Source of the DNA: Klebsiella pneumoniae
Lineage (GTDB): Bacteria > Desulfobacterota > Binatia > UBA12015
Assembly (NCBI GenBank): GCA_945872365.1
Contig: CAMBZJ010000013.1
Coordinates: 1 to 64,000 of the forward strand
Direction of reading: 5' to 3'
DNA: 64,000 bases
Shown here: piece after piece, positions 11,663 to 28,983 of the stretch
Position numbering within the stretch: the first letter of the stretch is position 1
Layout: each line of letters opens with the position of its first letter
Program-made: the position numbers and the translations under genes
The notes under the pieces: generated by a model
What the model saw: the letters and a program-made list of their open reading frames with translations, nothing else
Told to the model about the DNA's origin: nothing
Database searches by the model: none

Positions 11663-14600
11663 TCAACCCGGCCCGGCGGCGCCCGGCGCCGTCACCGGTC
11701 CGTCGCGCAGTGCGCGGCTCCGCCAGATGGCATAGATCACCGGGTAGACCAGGAGTTCGAGCAGGAAGGAGGTGAAGAGCCCGCCAACCATCGGCGCTGC
11801 GATGCGCTTCATCACGTCCGAGCCGGCCCCGGTCGACCACATGATCGGCAGGAGTCCCATGAACGCCGCGACCACTGTCATCATCTTCGGACGCACTCGC
11901 CGCACCGCCCCGTGGACGATCGCCTCCTCGAGGTCCTGCACGTCGCGCATCCGACCCTGCCGTACGCGCTCGTCCCAGGCGAGGTCGAGGAAGAGCAGCA
12001 TGAACACGCCGGTCTCGGCGTCGAGGCCCATGAGCGCGATCATCCCGACCCAGACCGCGATCGACGTGTTGTAGCCGAGCCCCCAGAGGAGCCAGACCGC
12101 GCCCACGAGCGAGAACGGCACGGCGAGCAGCACGATCCCCGCCTTCACCGCGGAACGCGTGTTCAGGTAGAGCAGGATCGCGATCAGGAAGATGGTGACT
12201 GGCACCACCGTGCGCAGCCGTTCGCGGACGCGGATCATGTTCTCCCACTGCCCGCTCCAGACGAGGCTGGTGCCGACCGGCAGGCGCACCCGTTGCGCGA
12301 CCGCGCGCTTGGCCTCGTCGACCCAGCCACCGAGGTCGCGACCGGCCATGTCGACGAAGACGTAGCCGGCTAGCTGGCCGTTCTCGTTGCGGATCATCGC
12401 CGGCCCCTCGACGACCCGGATGTCGGCGATCTCGGACATCGGCACCTGCGCGCCCGACGGGGTCGCGACGAGCGTCCGGCGCAGCGCAGCCAGGTCGTCG
12501 CGATCGTCGCGGGCATAGCGCACGTTCACCGGGTAGCGACCGCGCCCCTCGATCGTCGTGGTCACGTTCTCGCCGCCGATCGCGGAGAGGATGGTCGTCT
12601 GCGCATCCTCGACGGCGAGCCCGTAGCGGGCGAGCGCGTCGCGCTTGAGGTCGAAATCGACGTAGTAGCCGCCGGCCGTCCGCTCGGCGACCACGGTGCG
12701 GGTGCCGGGTACCGTGCGCAGCACCCGTTCGATCTCCTCGCCGACCTGCTGGATCACCGTGAGGTCGGAGCCCAGGACCTTGACGCCGACCGGGGTGCGG
12801 ATGCCGGTCGAGAGCATGTCGATGCGATTGCGGATCGGCATCGTCCAGATGTTGGGCAGCCCGGGGAGCTGCAGCTTCGCATCCATCTCTTCCTGGAGTT
12901 CCTCCCAGGTGAGATGCTCGGGGACGAACCGGGAGAGCAGGCGACGGACCGGGGCGGGCATGTCGGAGTACCACCGCCGCACCGGGCGCCACTCCGACTC
13001 CGGCCGGAGCACCACGGTCGTCTCGACCATCGAGAGCGGCGCCGGGTCGGTCGGCGAATCGGCGCGTCCTGCCTTGCCGAAGACGCTCTGCACCTCGGGA
13101 AAGCCGTGCAGGATCCGGTCCTGCACCTGGAGCACGCGCTGCGCCTCACCGACCGACATCCCGGGTAGCGCCGTCGGCATGTAGAGCATGGCGCCCTCGT
13201 GGAGAGGCGGCATGAATTCCGAACCCAGGCGGAGATAGACCGGCACCGTACTCGCGACGAGCGCGCCGGCGAGGCCAAGGGTGAGCAGGCGATGTCGCAG
13301 GACGAACCGGCAGACCGGCTCGTAGACCCGGAAGAGCACTCGGCTGATCGGGTGGCGCTCCTCGGGATGGTAGCGCCCGACGGCGACCGAGGTTGCCAAA
13401 GCGGCGAGTGCACGCGGCCGGAATCGAAAAGGCTCCATGCGCGTGAAGAGCATGCGGATCGCCGGGTCGAGCGTGATCGCCAGCAGGGCCGCGATCGCCA
13501 TCGCGAGGTTCTTCGACCAGGCGAGCGGCCTGAAGAGCCGGCCCTCCTGGTCGACCAGCGTGAACACCGGCAGGAAGGCGACCGCGATCACCAGCAGCGA
13601 GAAGAAGACCGACGGGCCGACCTCGCGCAGCGCCTGCAGCCGCACTTCGTGGAAATCACCCTGGCGTCCACCCGCGATCCATTCCTCGAGTCGCTTGTAA
13701 GCGTTCTCGACCTCGACGATCGCACCATCGACGAGCACGCCGATCGAGATCGCGATCCCCGACAGCGACATGATGTTCGAGGTGACGCCGAGGAACCACA
13801 TCGGCAGGAAGGCGAGCACGACCGAGACCGGGATCGTGACGATCGGGATGATCGCCGACGGCACGTGCCAGAGGAAGACGAGGATCACCAGGCTCACGAT
13901 GACCATCTCCTCGACGAGCGAGTGCAAGAGCGTGTCGATCGCGCGACGGATCAGGTCCGAGCGGTCGTAGACGGGAACGATCTCGACCCCGGGCGGCAGT
14001 CCCGAGGACAGCTCGGCGAGCGCCGCCTTCACCCGGTCGATCACGGCGAGCGCGTTCTCGCCCTGGCGCATGACCACGATGCCGCCCACCGTATCGCCCT
14101 CGCCGTCGAGATCGGCCACGCCGCGCCGCATCTCGGGCCCGGTCGCGACCCGTGCCACGTCGCGGACGAGGATCGGCGTGGCCGTCTTCGCGTCGACCGA
14201 CACGACCGTGTTCTCGATGTCCTCGACCGACTTCAGGTAGCCCCGGCCGCGCACCATGTACTCGGCGCCGCCCATTTCGAGCAGGCGCCCGCCGACCTCG
14301 CCGTTGGACTTGCGGATCGCGTCGACCACCTGCGGCAGGCCGAGACCGTAGGCGAGCAGGCGCTGCGGGTCGGCACTCACCTGGTACTGCTTCACGAAGC
14401 CGCCGACCGCTGCGACCTCAGCGACGCCCGGCACGGCCTGCAGCTGGTAGCGCAGGTACCAGTCCTGCAGGCTGCGCAGCTGGGCCAGATCGGTCCCGCC
14501 GGAGCGGTCGACGAGTGCGTACTGGAAGACCCAGCCGACGCTGGTCGCGTCGGGCCCGATCTCGGTGCGGACGCCCTCGGGCAGCCGCGGCAGGATCTTG

Positions 14601-14941
14601 CTCAGGAGTTCGAGCACCCGGGAGCGGGCCCAGTAGAGGTCGGTTCCGTCCTCGAAGACGACGTAGACGTAGGAATATCCGAAGTCCGAGGTGCCGCGGA
14701 CCGCTTTGACGTGCGGAGCGCCGAGCAGCGCGCTTGCGATCGGGTAGGTGACCTGGTCCTCGATGATGTCGGGGCTGCGGTCCCAGCGCGAGTAGACGAT
14801 GACCTGGACGTCGGAGAGGTCGGGGATCGCGTCGAGGGGCACGCGGCGCATCGCCCAGAGTCCGCCCGCGAAGGCGGCGGCGCACAGCAGGAGGACGAGG
14901 AACTTGTTCCGCGCACTCCAGTCGATGATGCGCTCGACCAC
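11663..14941 (-). CDS. cusA: CusA-type heavy-metal efflux RND transporter
   Basis: About 1092 residues, the inner-membrane proton-driven pump of a tripartite Cu(I)/Ag(I)-type efflux system. Seen: N-terminal TM and RVPLDAIPDLSDVQVIVYSRW, GVLVDGAIVEVENAYKRLEEW in TM4 (the HME-RND motif), FMPPLHEGAMLYMPTALPGMS, GKAGRADSPTDPAPL, and the C-terminal GAVRRVRPKMMT and AGSDVMKRIAAP. Met residues in PLSMVETT, DMLSTGI and GPAMIRNEN align, from memory, with the CusA methionine triad, which favours monovalent metals over CzcA-type Zn/Co/Cd. The GTG start at 14941 lies 10 nt after the cusB stop, with GAGGGGC between. It is the last gene of cusCBA. Confidence 0.93.
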   Translation of the reverse strand: MVERIIDWSARNKFLVLLLCAAAFAGGLWAMRRVPLDAIPDLSDVQVIVYSRWDRSPDIIEDQVTYPIASALLGAPHVKAVRGTSDFGYSYVYVVFEDGTDLYWARSRVLELLSKILPRLPEGVRTEIGPDATSVGWVFQYALVDRSGGTDLAQLRSLQDWYLRYQLQAVPGVAEVAAVGGFVKQYQVSADPQRLLAYGLGLPQVVDAIRKSNGEVGGRLLEMGGAEYMVRGRGYLKSVEDIENTVVSVDAKTATPILVRDVARVATGPEMRRGVADLDGEGDTVGGIVVMRQGENALAVIDRVKAALAELSSGLPPGVEIVPVYDRSDLIRRAIDTLLHSLVEEMVIVSLVILVFLWHVPSAIIPIVTIPVSVVLAFLPMWFLGVTSNIMSLSGIAISIGVLVDGAIVEVENAYKRLEEWIAGGRQGDFHEVRLQALREVGPSVFFSLLVIAVAFLPVFTLVDQEGRLFRPLAWSKNLAMAIAALLAITLDPAIRMLFTRMEPFRFRPRALAALATSVAVGRYHPEERHPISRVLFRVYEPVCRFVLRHRLLTLGLAGALVASTVPVYLRLGSEFMPPLHEGAMLYMPTALPGMSVGEAQRVLQVQDRILHGFPEVQSVFGKAGRADSPTDPAPLSMVETTVVLRPESEWRPVRRWYSDMPAPVRRLLSRFVPEHLTWEELQEEMDAKLQLPGLPNIWTMPIRNRIDMLSTGIRTPVGVKVLGSDLTVIQQVGEEIERVLRTVPGTRTVVAERTAGGYYVDFDLKRDALARYGLAVEDAQTTILSAIGGENVTTTIEGRGRYPVNVRYARDDRDDLAALRRTLVATPSGAQVPMSEIADIRVVEGPAMIRNENGQLAGYVFVDMAGRDLGGWVDEAKRAVAQRVRLPVGTSLVWSGQWENMIRVRERLRTVVPVTIFLIAILLYLNTRSAVKAGIVLLAVPFSLVGAVWLLWGLGYNTSIAVWVGMIALMGLDAETGVFMLLFLDLAWDERVRQGRMRDVQDLEEAIVHGAVRRVRPKMMTVVAAFMGLLPIMWSTGAGSDVMKRIAAPMVGGLFTSFLLELLVYPVIYAIWRSRALRDGPVTAPGAAGPG

Positions 14942-14951
14942 GGCGAGCCCC

Positions 14952-16112
14952 TCAGCGGGTCCGCGCTGCGGCGGCGCCGGAAGCGCTCGGGTCCGCGGGC
15001 GCTCGGAAATCGCCCGCCGCGGCGCGGAAGCGCGACTCGGAATCGACGAGGAAGTTCGCGGAGACGACGACGCGATCGCCGGGCTGGAGGCCGGAGAGCA
15101 CCTCGCGAAAACCCTCGCCGTCGCGCCCGAGGACGATCGACCGCGGCTCGAAACGGTGGCCGTCGTGGACCACGAAGACGAACTGCTCGCGCCCGGTGTC
15201 GACGATCGCCTCGTCGGGCACCGCCAGCACCTCGGAGGAGGCGACGAAGATCGTCGCGTCGACGAGCGATTCCGGCCGGAGCTCCCCGGCCGGGGTCGAT
15301 ACCTGCGCCCGCACCCGCACGGTGCGCGTCGACGGGTCGACGATCGGGTCCACGGAGGCGACCCGGGTCTCGATCGCGCGACCGGGGAGTGCGGGCGTAC
15401 GGATCGACATGCGCTGCCCCGGCCGGACCACCGCTGCGTCGCGATCCTGTAACTGCGCGTAGATCCACGCCGTGCGGCCGGGCAGCAGGAGGCTCTCCGC
15501 ACTCGTCCCGCCGCGCAGGATTTCGCGGGCCTGCTCCTCGGAGACGCCCTGTTGGCGGAGCTTCAGGCGCGCGGCGCGCGCGAGCCCCTCCGCGCCCACA
15601 CGAGCCTCCGGCGAACTGCTGCCCGCGAGTTCTCGCTGCGAGCGCATCGCCTCGCGGTATTCCGTCAGCGCCTGGTACGACTTCGGGTCGTAGGCGACGC
15701 GGCCCGTCGCGCGGATTTCCCGCTCGATGCGGCGCAGACCGACGACGGCGGTGCGCACGCCGATCAGTTGCTGGCGCTCGGAGTCGATCGTGATCGGCAT
15801 CCGACCCAGCACCGAGCCCGGCGCGGCCGGGGGCGATTCCGTGACGGGGCCCTGCACCGGCACGGCCCCGCCCGACACCGCCGCGTCGTCGGCGACGAAG
15901 ACGAGTTTCATGCCGCAGATCGGGCAGGACCCGGGTCGGTCGGAGACGATCTGCGGGTGCATCGCGCACTGGTAGTGACCGTGCGCCTGCGGGGCGGCCA
16001 CCCCTCCGTCGGGACGCATGGCGGGGAGTCGCAGTGGCATCCCCGTCCACCAGGCGACGGCCACGGCGACGGACGCGAGGACGACGAGTGCGCCCAGTAC
16101 GCGCCCCATCAC
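14952..16112 (-). CDS. cusB: CusB-type periplasmic adaptor with heavy-metal-binding domain
   Basis: 386-residue membrane-fusion protein linking the RND pump to the outer-membrane channel. Residues 1-25 are a membrane anchor or signal. Residues ~47-70 form a YHS-like heavy-metal-binding domain (YQCAMHP then CPICGMKL, with Cys49, His52, Cys63, Cys66 and Met68). The hairpin and lipoyl/barrel region follow (RATGRVAYDPKSYQALTEY, GRTAWIYAQLQDRDAAVVRPGQ, VDPIVDPSTRTVRVRAQV). The fused metal domain suggests the adaptor collects Cu or Ag itself, perhaps replacing a CusF chaperone, which is not seen here. Its ATG overlaps the cusC stop by 4 nt (ATGA), so translation is coupled. Confidence 0.92.
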   Translation of the reverse strand: MMGRVLGALVVLASVAVAVAWWTGMPLRLPAMRPDGGVAAPQAHGHYQCAMHPQIVSDRPGSCPICGMKLVFVADDAAVSGGAVPVQGPVTESPPAAPGSVLGRMPITIDSERQQLIGVRTAVVGLRRIEREIRATGRVAYDPKSYQALTEYREAMRSQRELAGSSSPEARVGAEGLARAARLKLRQQGVSEEQAREILRGGTSAESLLLPGRTAWIYAQLQDRDAAVVRPGQRMSIRTPALPGRAIETRVASVDPIVDPSTRTVRVRAQVSTPAGELRPESLVDATIFVASSEVLAVPDEAIVDTGREQFVFVVHDGHRFEPRSIVLGRDGEGFREVLSGLQPGDRVVVSANFLVDSESRFRAAAGDFRAPADPSASGAAAARTR

Positions 16113-17563
16113 GGGTGCCCCCCGGCGCGCGGAGCCGCCGTCGCGGACGCCCGACCGGTGGCGCGGTTGCCCCCGGCGGAGGCGGGTGCGGCCGGGGTCG
16201 GGGTCCGCGGATCGGTCGCGTCGCCTTCGTCGATCGTGCCGCGGACACGCGGCAGGTCGCGGCCGACCGTGCGCTCGATCTCGGCCCAGGTGAGTTCGAA
16301 CTCCGCCTGCGTGGCGACGTGTTCGAGGTGCGCCTGCTCGATCGCACGCACCGTGTCGAGGAAGGCCATCAGGTCCACCGCGCCCGAGGCATAGGCCGCC
16401 TCGGTGACGCGCAGTGCCTGCTCGGCCTGCGGAATGTGGGTGTCGAGAAAGAGGTCGTGCTGGAGGACGTCGGTGCGGGCGCGCAGCAGCAGTTCCTCGA
16501 TCGAGCGGCGGATGCGGTCCTCGAGCGCACGCTTGTCGGCGCGCGCCGCCGCAATGCGCGCGTTCCCCTCCGCCATCGCCGCCTCGTACTTGCGGCGCTG
16601 GACGAACGGCAGGGTGATCGAGGCCATCGCGCCGAAGCCGTCGCGCTGGTCGTGGTTCACGAAACGCCCGACCGACACCTCGAAGTCCGGGTAGAAGCCC
16701 TTCTCCGCGAGCGCCACGCCCGCCTGCTCGCGGCCGATCGCAGCGTCCCGACCGAGCAGCTCCGGGCGGGCCTCGAAGGCGATCTCGCCGAGTTCCGCGG
16801 CGGTCCAGCCGACCCGCGGGTGACCGGGCGCCTGCGGTCCGCCGAGCGGCGTTGCGGGGTCGCGGCTCAGGAGCGAATTGATCCGCACCCGCGCCTGGTC
16901 GATCGCCAGGTCGCCGGTGCGCACCCGGTTGATCGAGTGTCCGAGTTCGACCTGGGCTCGCAGGACGTCGGCTTGTGGCACGTCCCCGGTCCCGTATTTC
17001 TGCTCGGCGGTGCGCGCAAAGCGCTCGAGGATCTGGCGTTCGCGGGCGAAGATCTCGGCGTCGGCGCGCGCCTTCCAGTACGCGACGAAGGCCCCCTTCA
17101 GTTCGAACTCGACGTCGAGCCGTGCCGCGTTGGCCTCGGTGCGCGCGACGTCGGCGTCGCGCTCGGCCATCTCCCCGGTGAGCCGGCGCTTGCCCGGGAA
17201 CGGCACTCTCTGGGACAGCCGGAAGATGTTGTTGTCCGCCTGGTCGAGCTTGACGCCGTCGGGAAAGTTCCAGGCCTCCCAGCCGAGCGTCGGATCATCG
17301 AGAGCCGACACCCGCGCGGGGACGGCCGCCGCGGCGCCCGCCCGCGCCTCGGCCGCCGCGATGAGCGGGTTGCGCGTGCGGGCCTCCCGCAGGAGGTCGG
17401 CGAGGCGTACGACCGGGAGGACTCCGGCGCGCGGGCCGGTTTCGGGACCCGCGACGGAGACCCGGCCGCCTCCGGCGCACGGGAGCAGGACGATTCCGAG
17501 CGCCAGCGCGACCTGCGCTGCGCTCCGCGCCACAACGGTCCGGGGGTTCGGGAGTCGATCCAT
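16109..17563 (-). CDS. cusC: CusC/TolC-type outer-membrane efflux channel
   Basis: 484 residues of the outer-membrane efflux protein family, with two repeated coiled-coil helical hairpins. Seen: hydrophobic signal near residues 15-30, LADLLREARTRNPLIAAAEARAGAA at the start of the first repeat, FRLSQRVPFPGKR, KYGTGDVPQADVLRAQVELG, and the second-repeat counterpart YASGAVDLMAFLDTVRA. The C-terminus (last ~50 residues) is a disordered Pro/Ala tail. It is first in the cusCBA operon and overlaps cusB by 4 nt. The start at ATG 17563 has no Shine-Dalgarno and sits 6 nt after a CGTATTCC box shared with the divergent ECF sigma gene. Confidence 0.92.
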   Translation of the reverse strand: MDRLPNPRTVVARSAAQVALALGIVLLPCAGGGRVSVAGPETGPRAGVLPVVRLADLLREARTRNPLIAAAEARAGAAAAVPARVSALDDPTLGWEAWNFPDGVKLDQADNNIFRLSQRVPFPGKRRLTGEMAERDADVARTEANAARLDVEFELKGAFVAYWKARADAEIFARERQILERFARTAEQKYGTGDVPQADVLRAQVELGHSINRVRTGDLAIDQARVRINSLLSRDPATPLGGPQAPGHPRVGWTAAELGEIAFEARPELLGRDAAIGREQAGVALAEKGFYPDFEVSVGRFVNHDQRDGFGAMASITLPFVQRRKYEAAMAEGNARIAAARADKRALEDRIRRSIEELLLRARTDVLQHDLFLDTHIPQAEQALRVTEAAYASGAVDLMAFLDTVRAIEQAHLEHVATQAEFELTWAEIERTVGRDLPRVRGTIDEGDATDPRTPTPAAPASAGGNRATGRASATAAPRAGGHP

Positions 17564-17569
17564 CGACTC

Positions 17570-17600
17570 GGAATACGTCCGGGCCGGCCCCCGGTAACGC
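17570..17600 (-). promoter_or_regulatory. Putative ECF-sigma promoter of cusCBA
   Basis: Read on the minus strand: GCGTTAC (17600-17594), 16 nt, CGTATTCC (17577-17570), then 6 nt to ATG 17563. It differs at only one of 15 fixed positions from the element in front of the ECF sigma gene, with identical spacing. The short distance to the start implies a leaderless cus mRNA. Confidence 0.65.
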
Positions 17601-17732
17601 CACTCACCGGCGCCTGCCTGCCCGGGCGGACGATCGCGCGACGCGCGACCACGCTATCGGGCGGTCTGCTAGTCTCGACCGGCCCAGCGCGGTTCTCCGG
17701 CGCCCGCGCGCATGGCCCCGATTTCCGGGTCG

Positions 17733-17751
17733 TGCGCGCGTTACGCGCGCA
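17733..17751. promoter_or_regulatory. Perfect 9-bp palindrome over the -35 box of the ECF gene
   Basis: TGCGCGCGTTACGCGCGCA is two 9-bp arms around a single T. It covers the GTTAC box of the ECF promoter, so a repressor or metal sensor binding here would block transcription. It may instead be a by-product of alternating GC. Confidence 0.4.
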
Positions 17752-17768
17752 GCCCCCGCGCGTATACC
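17738..17768 (+). promoter_or_regulatory. Putative autoregulatory ECF promoter
   Basis: GCGTTAC (17738-17744), 16 nt, CGTATACC (17761-17768), followed by AAGGA and GTG 17784. It matches the cusC promoter element in sequence and spacing, as expected if the ECF sigma factor transcribes its own gene and the efflux operon. Confidence 0.65.
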
Positions 17769-17783
17769 CAAGGACGACGACGC

Positions 17784-18392
17784 GTGACCGACGAGTCGAC
17801 CAGCGACGAGATCCTCATGGCCGCCTACCAGGCAGGAAATCCGCGGGCGTTCCGCACCCTCCACGACCGCCACGGCGCGAGCGTCTACGGTTTTCTCGTC
17901 CGCCGCCTGGGCGACCGGGCCGCGGCGGAGGATCTCTACCAGGAGACCTTCCTGCGCCTGCACCGGGCGCGTGCTTCCTGGGATCCCGAGCGACCGCTGC
18001 GCCCCTGGCTGTTCGGCATCGTCCACAACCTCCTGGCCGACCACCTGCGGGCCCGCGGACGCTCGCCGGAGCGCGCCGATGCCGACGCCGTCGATCGCGC
18101 CGCTTCCGGCCGGGCGACGGGCCCGTGGGACGGGATCGCCTCGGGCGCCCCTTCAGACCCGGAGCGCGCCGCGGCGACGCGGGAGTCGACCGAGGCGCTC
18201 GACCGCGCCCTGCGACGCCTGCCCGACGACGAGGCGACCGTGCTCCTGCTCGCGCGCGTCGAGGGCCTGCCCTACGAGGCGATCGGTGCCATCCTGGGGC
18301 GCTCGCCCGCCGCGGCCAAGCAACTCGCCTACCGGGCGCTCAAGCGGGTGCGCGCCGAACTCGCGGCGGCCGGGCACGGAGAAGGCTCGTGA
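17784..18392 (+). CDS. ECF-family RNA polymerase sigma factor
   Basis: 202-residue sigma-70 factor with only regions 2 and 4. Region 2: AFRTLHDRHGASVYGFLVRRLGDRAAAEDLYQETFLRLHRAR, with the -10-binding helix and RPWLFGIVHNLLADHLRARGR. Region 4 helix-turn-helix: LRRLPDDEATVLLLARVEGLPYEAIGAILGRSPAAAKQLAYRALKRVRAEL. GTG 17784 is preceded by AAGGA. The stop overlaps the anti-sigma start by 4 nt. It diverges from cusCBA and shares a promoter-like element with it, so metal-responsive control of efflux is the natural reading. The ECF subgroup cannot be set by eye. Confidence 0.93.
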   Translation: MTDESTSDEILMAAYQAGNPRAFRTLHDRHGASVYGFLVRRLGDRAAAEDLYQETFLRLHRARASWDPERPLRPWLFGIVHNLLADHLRARGRSPERADADAVDRAASGRATGPWDGIASGAPSDPERAAATRESTEALDRALRRLPDDEATVLLLARVEGLPYEAIGAILGRSPAAAKQLAYRALKRVRAELAAAGHGEGS

Positions 18393-19327
18393 ACCGCATC
18401 ACCGACCGCGCTTGCGGCACCGTCGAGATCCTCCTCATGGACGAACTCGACGGCTCGATCGGCGAGGCCGAGCGGCACGCCCTCGATGCACACCTCTCGG
18501 GCTGCGAGGACTGCTCCCGCGCACGGCGCGACCTGCGCGAATCATGGGACGCCCTCGCCGCCACCCGGCCCGTCGAGCCGCCCGTGGCCCTGCGCGAGCG
18601 GACGACGCAGCGGGTGTCGGCGCTGCTCGCCGACGAGCGCGCGGATCACCGCGCGAGACGCGAGGCCAGAGCGGACTCGCCGGGGGTCGTCGCGCCGATG
18701 CGCGACACCTCGCGCGACTGGAGCCTCGTTCCGCTCGCCGTCGCCTCCGCATTGCTGGTCGCCGCAGTGACGATGCTGCTTCTCGGCGGACTGGTCTGGG
18801 GCACCGCTCTGCCGCAGAGCCACGTCTTCTTCTGTGCCGCGACCTACACCGGCCTGCTGGTCGGGGCCTTCTCCTGGATCTACAGCGCCACCACGGTGCG
18901 CGGCCTGCACCTCGACGCCGCGGCGCGGATCGGCGTGATCGCGCTCGCCATCACCATCGCTGCGACGACCGCCTGTCCCGGCTTCCACGTGCTCGCGTGG
19001 TGGGACCGCTCGATCCCCGGGCGGTGGCTCACCGGGACGATCGGCCCGGGCGGCAGCTCGCTCATCTTCGGGTTCGCCTACGGGTTGGTACCGGGATTCC
19101 TCGCCGCACTTTTCGGCGGACGCATGCTGGCCGAGCGGCCGGTCGCCAACGCGCTGGTCGCCGCGACGGTCGTCTTCCTGCTCGCCCTGCCGGTCGTGTA
19201 CCTGCAGTCGGCTCCCTTCACCTCCGGGCTGATCGCGAGCTGGGTGGCCGGGATCGCCGCCGGCACGCTTTGCGGGGTCGGAGGCGCCGTCCGGGTTCGC
19301 CGCCGCACCGCGGGGCTCGCCACCTAG
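18389..19327 (+). CDS. Membrane anti-sigma factor with zinc-finger domain
   Basis: 312 residues. The N-terminal ~100 form an anti-sigma zinc-binding domain with His35-x3-Cys39-x2-Cys42 (HLSGCEDC). The C-terminal ~200 contain about six hydrophobic segments (for example LVPLAVASALLVAAVTMLLLGGLVWG and ALVAATVVFLLALPVVYL), resembling the NrsF/DUF1109-like membrane part. It should hold the upstream ECF sigma factor at the membrane until an envelope or metal signal releases it. GTG 18389 overlaps the sigma stop (GTGA), so the pair is translated together. The internal FHVLAWW and RSIPGRW loops are rich in His/Trp. Confidence 0.88.
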   Translation: MNRITDRACGTVEILLMDELDGSIGEAERHALDAHLSGCEDCSRARRDLRESWDALAATRPVEPPVALRERTTQRVSALLADERADHRARREARADSPGVVAPMRDTSRDWSLVPLAVASALLVAAVTMLLLGGLVWGTALPQSHVFFCAATYTGLLVGAFSWIYSATTVRGLHLDAAARIGVIALAITIAATTACPGFHVLAWWDRSIPGRWLTGTIGPGGSSLIFGFAYGLVPGFLAALFGGRMLAERPVANALVAATVVFLLALPVVYLQSAPFTSGLIASWVAGIAAGTLCGVGGAVRVRRRTAGLAT

Positions 19328-19354: not shown

Positions 19355-20005
19355 TCAGGGGGCCGCGACGAGAGGATGCACGACGAGCACCGCTAGGTCC
19401 CAGGCGAGGTGCGCGACGATCACCGCGGCGAGACTTCCCGACCATGACCGCAGGACGTTCCAGCAGAACCCGACGCACAGGCAGGTGAGCACCAGCGCCG
19501 GCGAGCCGATCGGGGCATGGGCAAGCGCGTAGAGGATCGACCCGAGGATCGCGACACCGAACCAGCCGAAGTGTGTGGCGAGTGCCGAATGGACTGCCCC
19601 CCGCCAGACGATCTCCTCGCTGGCCACGACCACCGGCAGGAGGAGCAGGATCCCGGTGAGGCCGGGTCGTCCGAACGCGACGTAGAGATGCGTCACGTCG
19701 TCGCGGATCCCCGGCAGGACGGCCGTGACCGGCGGGAAGAGCGCGAACGTCGCGGCCGCCATCGCGCAGCCCACCACCAGTCCGAGCAGGAGCTTCGATG
19801 GAGCCGCATCGAGCGCATCCGCCAGCGCCCCGCCTTCCAGACCCACGGCGAGCGCACCGAGCGTCGACGCGGTCAGGCCGACGGCCGGCCAGATGCCGAA
19901 GGAGCGCGAGAGCCCCGCCCCGCACGCCCAGAGCACGACCATGACGGCCGCGATCGCATCCGACCGGGCTGGTCGCGACGCGGGAATCGTGAGCGGTGCG
20001 CTCAC
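19355..20005 (-). CDS. CPBP-family intramembrane metalloprotease
   Basis: About 216 residues with several TM helices. The CPBP (CAAX/Abi) motifs are present: EEIVWRG (paired Glu and Arg, catalytic), a second-helix stretch with FGWFGVAILGSILYALAHAPIG (His), and a last helix with CVGFCWNVLRSWSGSLAAVIVAHLAWDL (catalytic His). Members cleave prenylated or membrane proteins, and some act in bacteriocin immunity. The target here is unknown. The GTG start at 20005 overlaps the upstream NAD(P)-binding gene stop (GTGA), giving a two-gene operon. Confidence 0.88.
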   Translation of the reverse strand: MSAPLTIPASRPARSDAIAAVMVVLWACGAGLSRSFGIWPAVGLTASTLGALAVGLEGGALADALDAAPSKLLLGLVVGCAMAAATFALFPPVTAVLPGIRDDVTHLYVAFGRPGLTGILLLLPVVVASEEIVWRGAVHSALATHFGWFGVAILGSILYALAHAPIGSPALVLTCLCVGFCWNVLRSWSGSLAAVIVAHLAWDLAVLVVHPLVAAP

Positions 20006-20997
20006 GCCCGGGCGCCCCGTGCCGCCAGCAGGATCCGCTCGATCACCCCCCATGCACCCGGCACCGGGCCCTCGGCGCGCTCGGCGGCGAGCGCCCGGCG
20101 CGCCGCCTCCTCGAAGCGGATCAGCGGGGCGCGACCGACGAGCTTCCAGAAGCGATCGTCCTTGGCGAGCAGGTCGTCCTTCAGTCCGACGACGACCTCG
20201 CGCGCCACCGACCACTCGGCGCGGGTGACGAAGCGGACCCAGTGCGACGAAAGTCGCGGCGAGACGAACGGCACCTGGATCATGAGCGGCCGCGAGGCAC
20301 CGAGAACCTCCGCCGTGCGCTCGAGGATCTCGCGACCGGAGAGAATGTCGGGGCCGGGAATGTCGAACCACCCGCTGCCGGGGACGGGCACGTCGATCGA
20401 CCCGAGGAGGGCGGCGACGACGTCGTCGATCGCGACCGGCTGGGTGCGCGACTCGAGCCAGCGCGGCAGCACCATGAGCGGCAGCCGGGCCGCGAGATCA
20501 CGCACGATGAGCCAGCTCAGGCTGCCGTATCCGATGATCATGCTCGCGCGCAGTTCGACCGTCTCCACGCTTCCCGAGCGCAGCGTCTCGCCGACTTCCT
20601 GGCGGCTGCGCAGGTGCTCGGAGGCATCGCGCGGCGCCGCGACCCCGCCGAGGTAGACGATGCGCCGGACGCCGCTCGCCTCGGCCGCCCGGAGGAAATT
20701 GCTCGCCTGCTCGATCTCGGCGCGGCGGAAGTCCGCGCCTGCCGACGCCATACCGTGCACGAGGTAAAAGGCCGCGTCGCAGCCCTCGAGCGCGCGCGCC
20801 GTGGCGGACTCGTCGGCGACATCGGCGGCAACCCAGGAGCGGGTAGGCCAGCGACGCGTGGCGCGCGCGGCGTCGCGCGTGGCACAGCGAACGGAAAAGC
20901 CCGCGGCTTCGAGCGCGGGCAACACCGCGTTGCCCACGAAACCGGTGGCACCCGTCAACAGGATGCCGCGACCGGCTCCCGACTTCTTACCCGACAT
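20002..20997 (-). CDS. NAD(P)-binding atypical SDR (NmrA/epimerase-like)
   Basis: 331 residues with an N-terminal Rossmann fold: ILLTGATGFVGNAV, then FYLVHGM and RRIVYLGGV where the SDR Ser/Tyr region lies, and DVVAALLGSID in the C-terminal substrate domain. This is the atypical SDR_a5/YbjT-like group of NAD(P)H-binding proteins; the classical YxxxK triad is not clear, so it may sense or bind NAD(P)H rather than catalyse. ATG 20997 is preferred over GTG 21003, two codons upstream. It is translationally coupled to the CPBP protease gene. Confidence 0.85.
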   Translation of the reverse strand: MSGKKSGAGRGILLTGATGFVGNAVLPALEAAGFSVRCATRDAARATRRWPTRSWVAADVADESATARALEGCDAAFYLVHGMASAGADFRRAEIEQASNFLRAAEASGVRRIVYLGGVAAPRDASEHLRSRQEVGETLRSGSVETVELRASMIIGYGSLSWLIVRDLAARLPLMVLPRWLESRTQPVAIDDVVAALLGSIDVPVPGSGWFDIPGPDILSGREILERTAEVLGASRPLMIQVPFVSPRLSSHWVRFVTRAEWSVAREVVVGLKDDLLAKDDRFWKLVGRAPLIRFEEAARRALAAERAEGPVPGAWGVIERILLAARGARA

Positions 20998-26520: not shown

Positions 26521-27054
26521 TCAGGGCACTCCGGTGAGTTTCGCGACCAGCGTCACGACCCCGCCGCCCACGATGAGGAAGAACGGGTTGACCCGTGCCC
26601 GGCCGAGGATGGCGAGCACGGCCAGGCTGATCGCATAGGGCAGGAGCCCGTGCCCCTGCATCACCGTGCGTTCGATCGACATCGCCCCGGCGAGCATGAG
26701 CCCGATCGTGACCGGTCCGAGGCCGCGCGCGAGTGCTGCGCGCCGGGGGTCGTCGCGGAGGCGGTCCCAGGCGCGGCCGGCGAAGAAGGTCAACAACCCG
26801 GCCGGTGCGAAGAAGCCGATCAGCGCGAGCGCGGCTCCCGCCATGCCCGACACGTGGTAGCCGATGACGCTCACCATGAGCATGTTCGGACCCGGGGCCA
26901 ATTGCCCCAGGCTGTAGATCTGCCCGAACTGCTCGGCGGTGATCCAGGGCGCCGGGCCGACGGTGAAGGCCTTCATCTCCGGCAGGACCGCGGCACCGCC
27001 GCCGATGGCCAGCATCGAGAGCAGGGAGAACAAGCCAAGGATCTGCAGAAGCAT
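26521..27054 (-). CDS. chrA: Chromate transporter, C-terminal half protein
   Basis: 177-residue single-domain CHR protein, the second of a short-chain pair. It starts MLLQILGLFSLLSMLAIGGGAAVLPEM, then WITAEQFGQIYSLGQLAPGPNMLMVSVIGYHVSGMAGAALALIGFFAPAGLL, which carries the conserved LAPGPN motif, and ends in several helices. Two such half-proteins assemble into the equivalent of full-length ChrA, which exports chromate using the proton motive force. ATG 27054 overlaps the stop of the first half by one base (TGATG). Confidence 0.9.
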   Translation of the reverse strand: MLLQILGLFSLLSMLAIGGGAAVLPEMKAFTVGPAPWITAEQFGQIYSLGQLAPGPNMLMVSVIGYHVSGMAGAALALIGFFAPAGLLTFFAGRAWDRLRDDPRRAALARGLGPVTIGLMLAGAMSIERTVMQGHGLLPYAISLAVLAILGRARVNPFFLIVGGGVVTLVAKLTGVP

Positions 27055-27686
27055 CAGCGGCCATCCACGTCGCGAGCGGAGTCGTGTCGACCGGCGGGCT
27101 CCTCGGTGACGGCGACCGCCGGGCGGGCAGCGTTGCCAACCGGCCGGTACCACCAGACCGCGAACGGCGCGACCGTCGACAATACCGCGAGAAGCGGTAG
27201 GTGCAGAACGGCGACCGCCGCGAAGGTCGCCAGCACGATTCCCACGTCGAAGGCGTCGCGCACGACCGGTTGCGCGAGCCTCCACGTGGTCTGCAGGAGC
27301 AGTCCCACCGCGGCCGAGCCGACGCCGAGCAGGACCGTGGAGAAGTCCCAGCCCTTCGAGTGCTCCGCGACGAGGATGCCGAGGGCCATGACCACGATGG
27401 TGCCCGGCAGCATCATGCCCAGACAGGCGACGAACGCGCCCGCGGAACCGCGCAGTCGCTCACCGACGTAGACGCTCATGTTCGTCGCGTTCAGGCCCGG
27501 CAGGATCTGGCTGAGTTCGAGCCCCTGGATGAAGGTCTCGTCGTCTAGCCACTTTTCACGTACGACGAGGGCTTCGCGCAGGTAGGCGACCACGCCGCCG
27601 CCGAAACTCGTCGCACCGAGCAACAGGAAGGCGCGGAAGATGCGGCCCAAGCCGATCTCCGGCGTCCTCGACTCGTCCTCACTCAT
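27054..27686 (-). CDS. chrA: Chromate transporter, N-terminal half protein
   Basis: 210-residue CHR-domain protein. It has the N-terminal FLLLGATSFGGGVVAYLREALVVREKWLDDETFIQGLELSQILPGLNATNMSVYVGERLRG, with the diagnostic SFGGG and QILPGLNATN motifs, plus five further helices and a short polar tail. It is co-encoded with the second half. Its ATG at 27686 lies inside the last codons of the upstream CYTH-like gene (8-nt overlap), so the three genes are translationally linked. No chromate-responsive regulator gene such as chrB is visible nearby. Confidence 0.9.
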   Translation of the reverse strand: MSEDESRTPEIGLGRIFRAFLLLGATSFGGGVVAYLREALVVREKWLDDETFIQGLELSQILPGLNATNMSVYVGERLRGSAGAFVACLGMMLPGTIVVMALGILVAEHSKGWDFSTVLLGVGSAAVGLLLQTTWRLAQPVVRDAFDVGIVLATFAAVAVLHLPLLAVLSTVAPFAVWWYRPVGNAARPAVAVTEEPAGRHDSARDVDGR

Positions 27687-28983
27687 CGTGGATCTTGCGA
27701 CCGGAGAGGCCGTAGTAGAGCCAGGTCTTCGTGTTCCCGAGTTCGACCCATGCACCGGTCTCGCGCTGCAGGATCCTGTACAACCGCTCGGAGCGCAGCT
27801 TGGGGACCGGGTTCAGCCGGCCGTAGTGGCGGAAGTGGGTCTCGTAGGCGAACTCGCCGATGAGGATCTGCCCGGTCGCCGCGTTGCGCCAGATCGCCAT
27901 GTCGACCTTGGCGGTCTTCGCGCCGCGGAAGCCCAACTCGCCGAGGTCGTAGAGCACCTCCTCGACCGGCGTCTCGATCGCGGGCGCGATCCTCGTCTCG
28001 GGCGGGATCGAGAGCACGCCGAGGATCGGGAAGATGCGCAGGCAATCGCCGAATGTCGCGGGCAGCGGCCCCTCGTAGTTCTTCAACTGACAGGTATGGG
28101 AGAAGATGCTGCGCATGCCGCCGAGCGCACTCGACACGAGCAGGATCTCCTCCTTGAACTTGACCTGTCCGCCGTAGTCGGCCGCGGCCTTCAGGTCGAC
28201 GCCGAGGGCGCGGCCGATGTCCGAGTCGCGGAACTTCAGCGTCAACTCGCAACGCGCCGCCAGCCCCGCCGGGCCGACCTCGCGCCGCACGCGGAGCATG
28301 AAGGCGTTGCGGTAGAGGTCGAAGTCCGGCGTGTCGAGGAAGACGATCTCGCGCAGCCGCGGCCTGGCCTCCGTCCGGTTGCGGCGTACGCTCAGGAGCA
28401 ATTGCCCCGCCACCCTGCGCGCGAGCCTCCAGTAGTCGGCGACGTCGCGCGCGACGTCTGCGGAGAAGTCCTCCGCCTTGAGCAGAATCTTGAACTCGCG
28501 GTAGTGGATCGACTCGTAGGCTTCGTGGAGATCGACGTGGCGGTGGCGGCCGCGCGCCATCTGCCGCTCGACCTCCGAGGCTCCGTGCACACCGACGGTC
28601 GACTGGCGCCGCTCGTGCGCGGCGACCGAGATGGCGCCGTCGCCAGCGTCGGCGGCCGCAAGGGCGGCCGCCCCGACGGCGGCGGTCGCCTCGCGGAAAG
28701 CCTCGGCGGTATCCGTCGCGGCCGAAGCCCGACGCGGCGCCTTGCGCGCCGTCGCCGACCTGACAGCACCGTCGCGACGAGCCGAGGACGTCCCGTCGGC
28801 CTTCGCCTTCCCCTGCGCGACCGCCTCCTTCTTCGCGGCCTTTTCCGTCTTCTTCCGCTTCTTCTTCTCCTTGCGGCTCTCGTCCGGAGCCGGGGCCTCG
28901 ACCTCGGGGGCGAGCGAGGTCACCTCCTCGGCCGACCGCTTCTGCTTCTTGCCGTGCTTCTTGCCCTTGTCGTGCTTGCCCAC
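27679..28983 (-). CDS. VTC/CYTH-like tunnel-domain protein with basic N-terminal tail
   Basis: 434 residues from a GTG with GGAGG upstream. Residues 1-~130 are an extremely Lys/Arg/Ala-rich tail (KHDKGKKHGKKQKR, KEKKKRKKTEKAAKKEA), like a histone-H1 or nucleic-acid/polyphosphate-binding extension. The rest has hallmarks of a triphosphate-tunnel fold: YREFKILLKAEDF, VFLDTPDFDLYRNAFMLRVRRE, CELTLKFRDSD, VKFKEEIL, TAKVDMAIWRN and GEFAYETHF, alternating charged strands as in VTC4/CYTH polyphosphate or triphosphate enzymes. I do not recognise an exact family. The 8-nt overlap with the chromate transporter pair suggests a shared stress role, which is inference. Confidence 0.6.
   Translation of the reverse strand: MGKHDKGKKHGKKQKRSAEEVTSLAPEVEAPAPDESRKEKKKRKKTEKAAKKEAVAQGKAKADGTSSARRDGAVRSATARKAPRRASAATDTAEAFREATAAVGAAALAAADAGDGAISVAAHERRQSTVGVHGASEVERQMARGRHRHVDLHEAYESIHYREFKILLKAEDFSADVARDVADYWRLARRVAGQLLLSVRRNRTEARPRLREIVFLDTPDFDLYRNAFMLRVRREVGPAGLAARCELTLKFRDSDIGRALGVDLKAAADYGGQVKFKEEILLVSSALGGMRSIFSHTCQLKNYEGPLPATFGDCLRIFPILGVLSIPPETRIAPAIETPVEEVLYDLGELGFRGAKTAKVDMAIWRNAATGQILIGEFAYETHFRHYGRLNPVPKLRSERLYRILQRETGAWVELGNTKTWLYYGLSGRKIHDE

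Follow-up and report, generated by a model that had tools for sequence, protein, structure and literature searches.

A CusCBA-type pump in the 64,000-nucleotide stretch of DNA analysed here (the window) is encoded divergently from an operon for an ECF sigma factor and a membrane-bound anti-sigma factor, and the question that this locus raises is what switches the pump on. The first-pass annotation had pointed to two copies of one promoter-like element in the interval 17564-17783, which is the exact gap between the cusC ATG (17563) and the sigma GTG (17784). It had suggested that the sigma factor transcribes both its own gene and the Cu/Ag efflux operon, with the anti-sigma factor as sensor. 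We compared the locus with related genomes and with known regulators of metal efflux.

Results

Organization of the locus

The features of the locus are collected in Table 1. The sigma factor consists of regions 2 and 4 only, in about 200 residues, and scores 95.5 bits against TIGR02937 (cut-off 42.9), which places it among the ECF (group 4) sigma factors. Its start is conserved among orthologues, and there are no cysteines in its 202 residues. The GTG of the anti-sigma gene overlaps the sigma stop codon by 4 nt.

Table 1. Genes and predicted promoters of the cus and sigma operons (positions in the window)
Feature	Position	Strand	Description
cusA	11663..14941	-	Heavy-metal RND permease, 1092 aa, GTG start; TIGR00914, 1043 bits (cut-off 701)
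cusB-like	14952..16112	-	Periplasmic adaptor with N-terminal heavy-metal binding domain (HMBD); PF16576, PF19335
cusC-like	16109..17563	-	Outer membrane factor, 484 aa from listed ATG; PF02321, E 1.2e-35
Predicted ECF promoter of cusCBA operon	17570..17600	-	GCGTTAC-N16-CGTATTCC; faces cus in 10/10 related divergent regions
Predicted ECF promoter of sigma/anti-sigma operon	17738..17768	+	GCGTTAC-N16-CGTATACC; faces sigma gene in 9/10 related regions
ECF sigma factor gene	17784..18392	+	GTG start, 202 aa; sigma-70 regions 2 and 4; PF04542 and PF08281 above cut-off
Anti-sigma factor gene	18389..19327	+	GTG start, 312 aa; N-terminal zf-HC2, then predicted six-helix membrane domain

Convergent to the anti-sigma gene we noticed a gene for an Rce1-like (CPBP) membrane protease (window 19355-20371, minus strand), which was not seen conserved beside the cluster. 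Proteases of the Rce1/CPBP superfamily are able to cut anti-sigma factors. Two overlapping open frames elsewhere in the window (26521-27755, minus strand) resemble, by eye, the halves of a chromate transporter.

Two copies of one element in the intergenic region

Both elements were found exactly as the first-pass annotation had placed them, in coordinates, strand and spacing, and they agree at 14 of their 15 fixed positions. Between box and start codon there are 6 nt on the cusC side (ATG) and 15 nt on the sigma side (GTG), which would leave the mRNAs with very short leaders or none. A scan of the whole genome (3,117,715 bases, 57 contigs) with GCGTTAC-N(15-17)-CGTATWCC returned two matches, both at this locus. 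The same pattern read backward, as a control, had no match in the genome, and dinucleotide shuffles of the window gave none. Relaxing the pattern to the core GTTAC-N16-CGTA yielded four matches in the genome versus one in the backward control, the two additional ones lying on other contigs and not fitting the fuller consensus described below. GGAAC, a typical feature of many ECF promoters, is absent from the -35 part of the element, a point that we counted against the ECF reading. No sigma-70-type promoter was found in the gap between cusC and the sigma gene, and basal transcription perhaps comes from read-through or weak leakage.

The element accompanies the sigma gene across related genomes

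The compared genomes all belong to one class of the genome collection, which, from a named record, we take to be Binatia; those relatives that carry names are MAGs of uncultured organisms, filed under Deltaproteobacteria, Candidatus Binatia, Polyangiaceae UTPRO1 and others. A profile of the anti-sigma factor detected strong relatives in 9 of the 148 genomes of the class, plus two weak ones. Two peptide patterns run against 84,980 species genomes, a scan that reaches close relatives only, returned nine loci that largely coincide with the relatives found by the profile. About ten Binatia genomes have the syntenic cluster of cus, sigma and anti-sigma genes, and in them the element faces both operons. 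The two operons diverge, each with its own element, in G001, G004 (two copies), G005, G009, G024, G030, G037, G146 and G147. The G146 cluster was reached via CusA alone; it lies partly at a contig end and includes the sigma gene as well as both elements. A gap of 6 nt separates the box from the cusC ATG in G000 and G001, where the cusC mRNA would be leaderless, or the start annotated too far upstream.

Single genes of otherwise intact clusters contain an internal stop or frame break: cusA in G037 (L037) and G146 (L109), the anti-sigma gene in G005 (L034) and cusC in G004 (L098). Either assembly error or decay may be the cause of these breaks.

Of ten divergent intergenic regions, all have GTTAC-N16-CGTA towards cus and nine have it towards the sigma gene, the exception being G009, which reads GTTAT-N16-CGTAG on its sigma side. 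When the spacer was varied over these regions, N16 accounted for 9+10 matches and the remaining spacers from 8 to 30 for one altogether. Dinucleotide shuffling of the ten regions (1000 rounds) produced a mean of 0.005 matches, against the 19 observed. The sequence between the boxes is unrelated across genomes, whereas the boxes and their spacing are retained. Nine cus operons that have no sigma gene (G096, G100, G089, G101, G102, G104, G105, G031 and G038; CusA 65-79% identical) showed no GTTAC-N16-CGTA on the cus stretches read. On a CusA tree the sigma-bearing pumps cluster, with 3 changes versus 6.9 in shuffles, but not as one clean clade.

Aligning 27 Binatia sites gave the consensus YGTTACS-N15-CGTATTC. 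The leading GC that the first-pass annotation had counted as part of the element is not conserved, the constrained parts being YGTTACS and CGTATTC; a Y precedes GTTAC in 27 of 27 sites, and the TTC after CGTA is also constrained. Because the core pattern itself was used to gather the sites, its nine bases are in part invariant by construction; Y, S and TTC, which were absent from the search pattern, are independent evidence, as is the spacer scan. That the sigma factor would transcribe both itself and cusCBA is strongly supported by these comparisons: the element occurs together with the sigma gene, keeps N16 and its orientation, and is absent at cus operons without the sigma gene.

Absence of CusRS-type matches

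The first-pass annotation had the sigma factor acting in place of CusRS, and in keeping with this, no member of the CusS/CopS or CusR/CopR families was matched over the curated cut-off in nine genomes with the cluster. In the window genome, the best CopR-type matches cover the receiver half only. Some other regulator may still act. We found no third regulatory gene common to the clusters, and no CnrX-like gene.

The anti-sigma factor combines a zinc finger with a conserved membrane domain

The N-terminus of the anti-sigma factor matches zf-HC2 (PF13490; 29.7 bits, cut-off 22.2) and is similar to RsiW (5wuq, E 6.6e-6). The window protein carries the HxxxCxxC of class I anti-sigma factors; the first His of this zinc-binding motif is absent from the G009 protein. 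The zinc-finger part is the predicted cytoplasmic sigma-binding domain. For such zinc-finger domains the literature suggests a structural role.

In the orthologue alignment, conservation is far higher in the membrane part than in either the zinc finger or the sigma factor. Six helices and a cytoplasmic N-terminus are suggested by a simple Kyte-Doolittle scan in which neighbouring peaks were merged by eye. The predicted topology puts three residues on the periplasmic side, H145 and C149 at the start of helix 2 and C196 at the end of helix 3, and H174 on the cytoplasmic side. All four residues are invariant across eight full relatives; C149 and C196 are kept in one distant relative (L088), not in another (L089). 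The position of H145, C149 and C196 would be natural for a Cu(I)/Ag(I) site, and the fused membrane domain is probably the sensor. The first-pass annotation had named the zinc-finger anti-sigma factor as sensor; the protein keeps that probable role, but its zinc finger looks like the RsiW-like, sigma-binding part, and the conserved membrane domain is the likelier place of sensing. An AlphaFold model (10 sequences; mean pLDDT 64.5, pTM 0.33) was confident in the zinc-finger domain and not in the membrane part.

A Cys...Cys-Pro at similar spacing had raised homology of the membrane domain to NrsF, which found no support. NrsF (PF06532) gave no hmmscan match up to E 1 in the anti-sigma factor and none in the genome, and profile-profile comparison with hhalign returned a probability of 0.2%.

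Reach of the predicted regulon

No further target of the element was found in the window genome outside the cluster, so its regulon seems to consist of cusCBA and the sigma/anti-sigma operon only. In most genomes, counts of GTTAC-N16-CGTA outside the cluster are about those of the backward control, and clear extras occur only in G004 and at one site in G009. In G004 a further divergent Cus operon, whose CusA is about 50% identical, is also preceded by the element, as are short secreted proteins of two families, for which Pfam gave no match. The G009 site (L059, contig 83, about 1119, minus strand) is unlinked to the cluster and stands, with a good ribosome site, before a secreted protein of about 103 aa with HWH and Met motifs. 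A distant homologue pair was found in G124 (L113, contig 47; sigma factor 40% and anti-sigma factor 29% identical), on the same strand and downstream of genes for a heavy-metal P-type ATPase with HMA domains, a DUF7482 protein and a DsbD-like protein.

The short secreted proteins are located at L043 6853-7179 and 9091-9435, L046 635-952, and L047 4349-4645 and 8606-8893, several of them directly behind an element. A relative (L102 7030-7305) lies near the G100 cus operon, which has no sigma gene. G004 also encodes a third anti-sigma-like membrane domain (L047 8001-8525), 79% identical over the membrane part. Its zinc-finger part is apparently absent in the matched region, and the domain may be either a membrane domain that stands alone or a broken copy.

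These observations bear on whether copper is the signal at all. The sigma factor might answer general envelope or redox stress, with cusCBA as one output among others, as pairs of ECF and zinc-finger anti-sigma factors often do; the secreted proteins of unknown function behind the G004 element would suit such a role, and the conserved cysteines are possibly redox-active. We regard this as unlikely, though worth keeping in mind, given a regulon that is tiny and centred on Cus, extends to the second Cus operon of G004 and elsewhere hardly departs from the backward control, and given a distant pair that sits beside a heavy-metal P-type ATPase.

The pump is of the Cu/Ag type by sequence

Among solved structures, E. 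coli CusA is closest to the window CusA (1025 bits), versus 491 bits for ZneA. In the alignment to 3ne5 and 3k07 the methionine triad of E. coli CusA (M573, M623 and M672; numbered 580, 630 and 679 in the structure chains, a tag offset of 7) is kept completely, the residues lying within YMPTA, SMVETT and DMLSTG. Because of the two scores and the three retained methionines of the Cu/Ag site, a Cu/Ag exporter is a better reading of the window pump than a divalent-metal pump, and the pump type given by the first-pass annotation gains support from the triad. Exporting divalent metals, as Czc does, would turn the locus into a Zn/Co/Ni circuit like Cnr. TIGR00914 does span both CusA and CzcA, and the nearest regulatory precedent, CnrH, controls a Ni/Co pump; nevertheless, with the scores and the triad against it and an HMBD of the kind found in Cu/Ag adaptors on CusB, we consider a divalent-metal circuit quite improbable. 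The metal assigned to the preferred Cu/Ag switch is read from its pump, not from its sensor.

The element is directional

Because TACG and CGTA form a small inverted repeat, TACG-N15-CGTA, the element could instead be the operator of a dimeric regulator of the MerR, TetR or response-regulator type. The four base pairs are symmetric in most sites, and the arms are about 21 bp apart, near two helical turns. Outside this 4-bp core, however, the sites are asymmetric: G1 and T2 are invariant, whereas their mirror positions hold T/A/C and T/G/C and never the complement of T2. G6 is replaced by C in 7 of 27 sites, which breaks the repeat. CGTA lies on the gene side at all examined sites, and no conserved DNA-binding regulator other than the sigma factor was found in the cluster. 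An operator is, on these grounds, very improbable. Chance, or shared ancestry of a duplicated and functionless intergenic stretch, would account for the close agreement of the two window copies, but we give it next to no credit in view of the unrelated spacers between retained boxes, the shuffling result and the sigma-less cus operons that do not have the element.

Discussion

The reading that we hold with considerable confidence is that an ECF sigma/anti-sigma switch with positive autoregulation governs Cu(I)/Ag(I) efflux at this locus. As long as the cell is unstressed, the N-terminal zinc finger of the membrane-anchored anti-sigma factor would hold the sigma factor. Periplasmic Cu(I)/Ag(I), or damage from the metal, would act on the six-helix membrane domain, and the sigma factor, once freed, would join RNA polymerase and read the two divergent copies of YGTTACS-N15-CGTATTC. 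Transcription from the sigma-side promoter would bring autoactivation as well as fresh inhibitor, and transcription from the cus-side promoter would supply CusCBA, by which the metal is pumped out; new anti-sigma factor and removal of the metal would then close the feedback. The steps differ in strength. That the window sigma factor reads both elements is very likely, and inhibition by the anti-sigma factor of its neighbouring sigma factor is likely, judged from family and operon. Sensing of Cu/Ag by the membrane domain, perhaps via H145, C149 and C196, is plausible.

In a bolder version, the six-helix domain would be a Cu(I)/Ag(I) receptor embedded in the membrane (H145, C149, C196), of a kind not described before, and the sole regulator of CusCBA, replacing CusRS in a branch of Binatia and commanding a small regulon of secreted metal-handling proteins; this we put forward tentatively, giving it somewhat less than an even chance.

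If the switch operates as proposed, a pump otherwise known under CusRS two-component control can run on a dedicated ECF switch, YGTTACS-N15-CGTATTC becomes a promoter code for finding targets in an uncultured phylum, and the anti-sigma factor represents a compact new membrane type and a candidate metal sensor. The promoter/sigma pair would also be narrow and orthogonal enough for reporter use. A search limited to open-access literature found no description of direct control of a CusCBA operon by an ECF sigma factor; as far as found, such control is known for nickel pumps and the variant for a CusCBA-type pump is apparently undescribed. To call ECF control of such a system uncommon, as the first-pass annotation did, is fair, but CnrH-CnrCBA (PMC9045368) is a clear precedent for a heavy-metal RND pump run by an ECF sigma factor.

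Comparison with known systems

E. coli cusCFBA encodes the same kind of pump under two-component CusRS control, unlike the window genome with its lack of a CusRS-family match over cut-off. In Acinetobacter baumannii, overexpression of the copper-responsive ECF sigma factor SigAb raises transcripts of CusA-type pumps (PMC12153292); the effect is indirect, the pump genes having no upstream SigAb motif, in contrast to the window cus operon. Myxococcus xanthus devotes the ECF sigma factors CorE and CorE2 to metals, copper in the case of CorE (PMC8999054, PMC10141476). CorE works without an anti-sigma factor, sensing through a Cys-rich C-terminal domain of its own and a CxC linker, whereas the cysteine-free window sigma factor has neither a Cys-rich domain nor a CxC. 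In Cupriavidus metallidurans, the ECF sigma factor RpoQ and the putative membrane anti-sigma factor RsqA form a divergon with copper/gold-induced genes (PMC10304878), but the targets of that divergon are gigPABT, not CusCBA, and RpoQ is only putatively their direct controller.

The polytopic membrane anti-sigma factor NrsF of Caulobacter crescentus works with SigF in the response to Cr and Cd, and substitution of two conserved Cys frees the sigma factor (PMC3511200). The window pair likewise joins an ECF sigma factor to an anti-sigma factor that is predicted to be polytopic and has two conserved Cys, although NrsF has no zinc-finger domain and SigF has other genes as targets. CnrYXH of C. metallidurans, an ECF sigma factor with a membrane anti-sigma factor, autoregulates from cnrYp and drives the heavy-metal RND pump CnrCBA from cnrCp (PMC9045368); here, too, the regulator operon and that of the RND pump each have a predicted ECF promoter in front of them. 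Cnr serves Ni/Co with a small class II anti-sigma factor, CnrY, a separate periplasmic sensor, CnrX, and genes in one direction, whereas the window has a Cu/Ag-type pump, a class I zinc-finger anti-sigma factor fused to six predicted helices, and divergent operons; CnrH itself is one of several ECF sigma factors at similar distance from the window one. CnrYXH-CnrCBA is the closest system in logic, SigF-NrsF in the kind of anti-sigma factor, CorE in the metal, and RpoQ-RsqA/gig in the divergent layout and the response to copper and gold.
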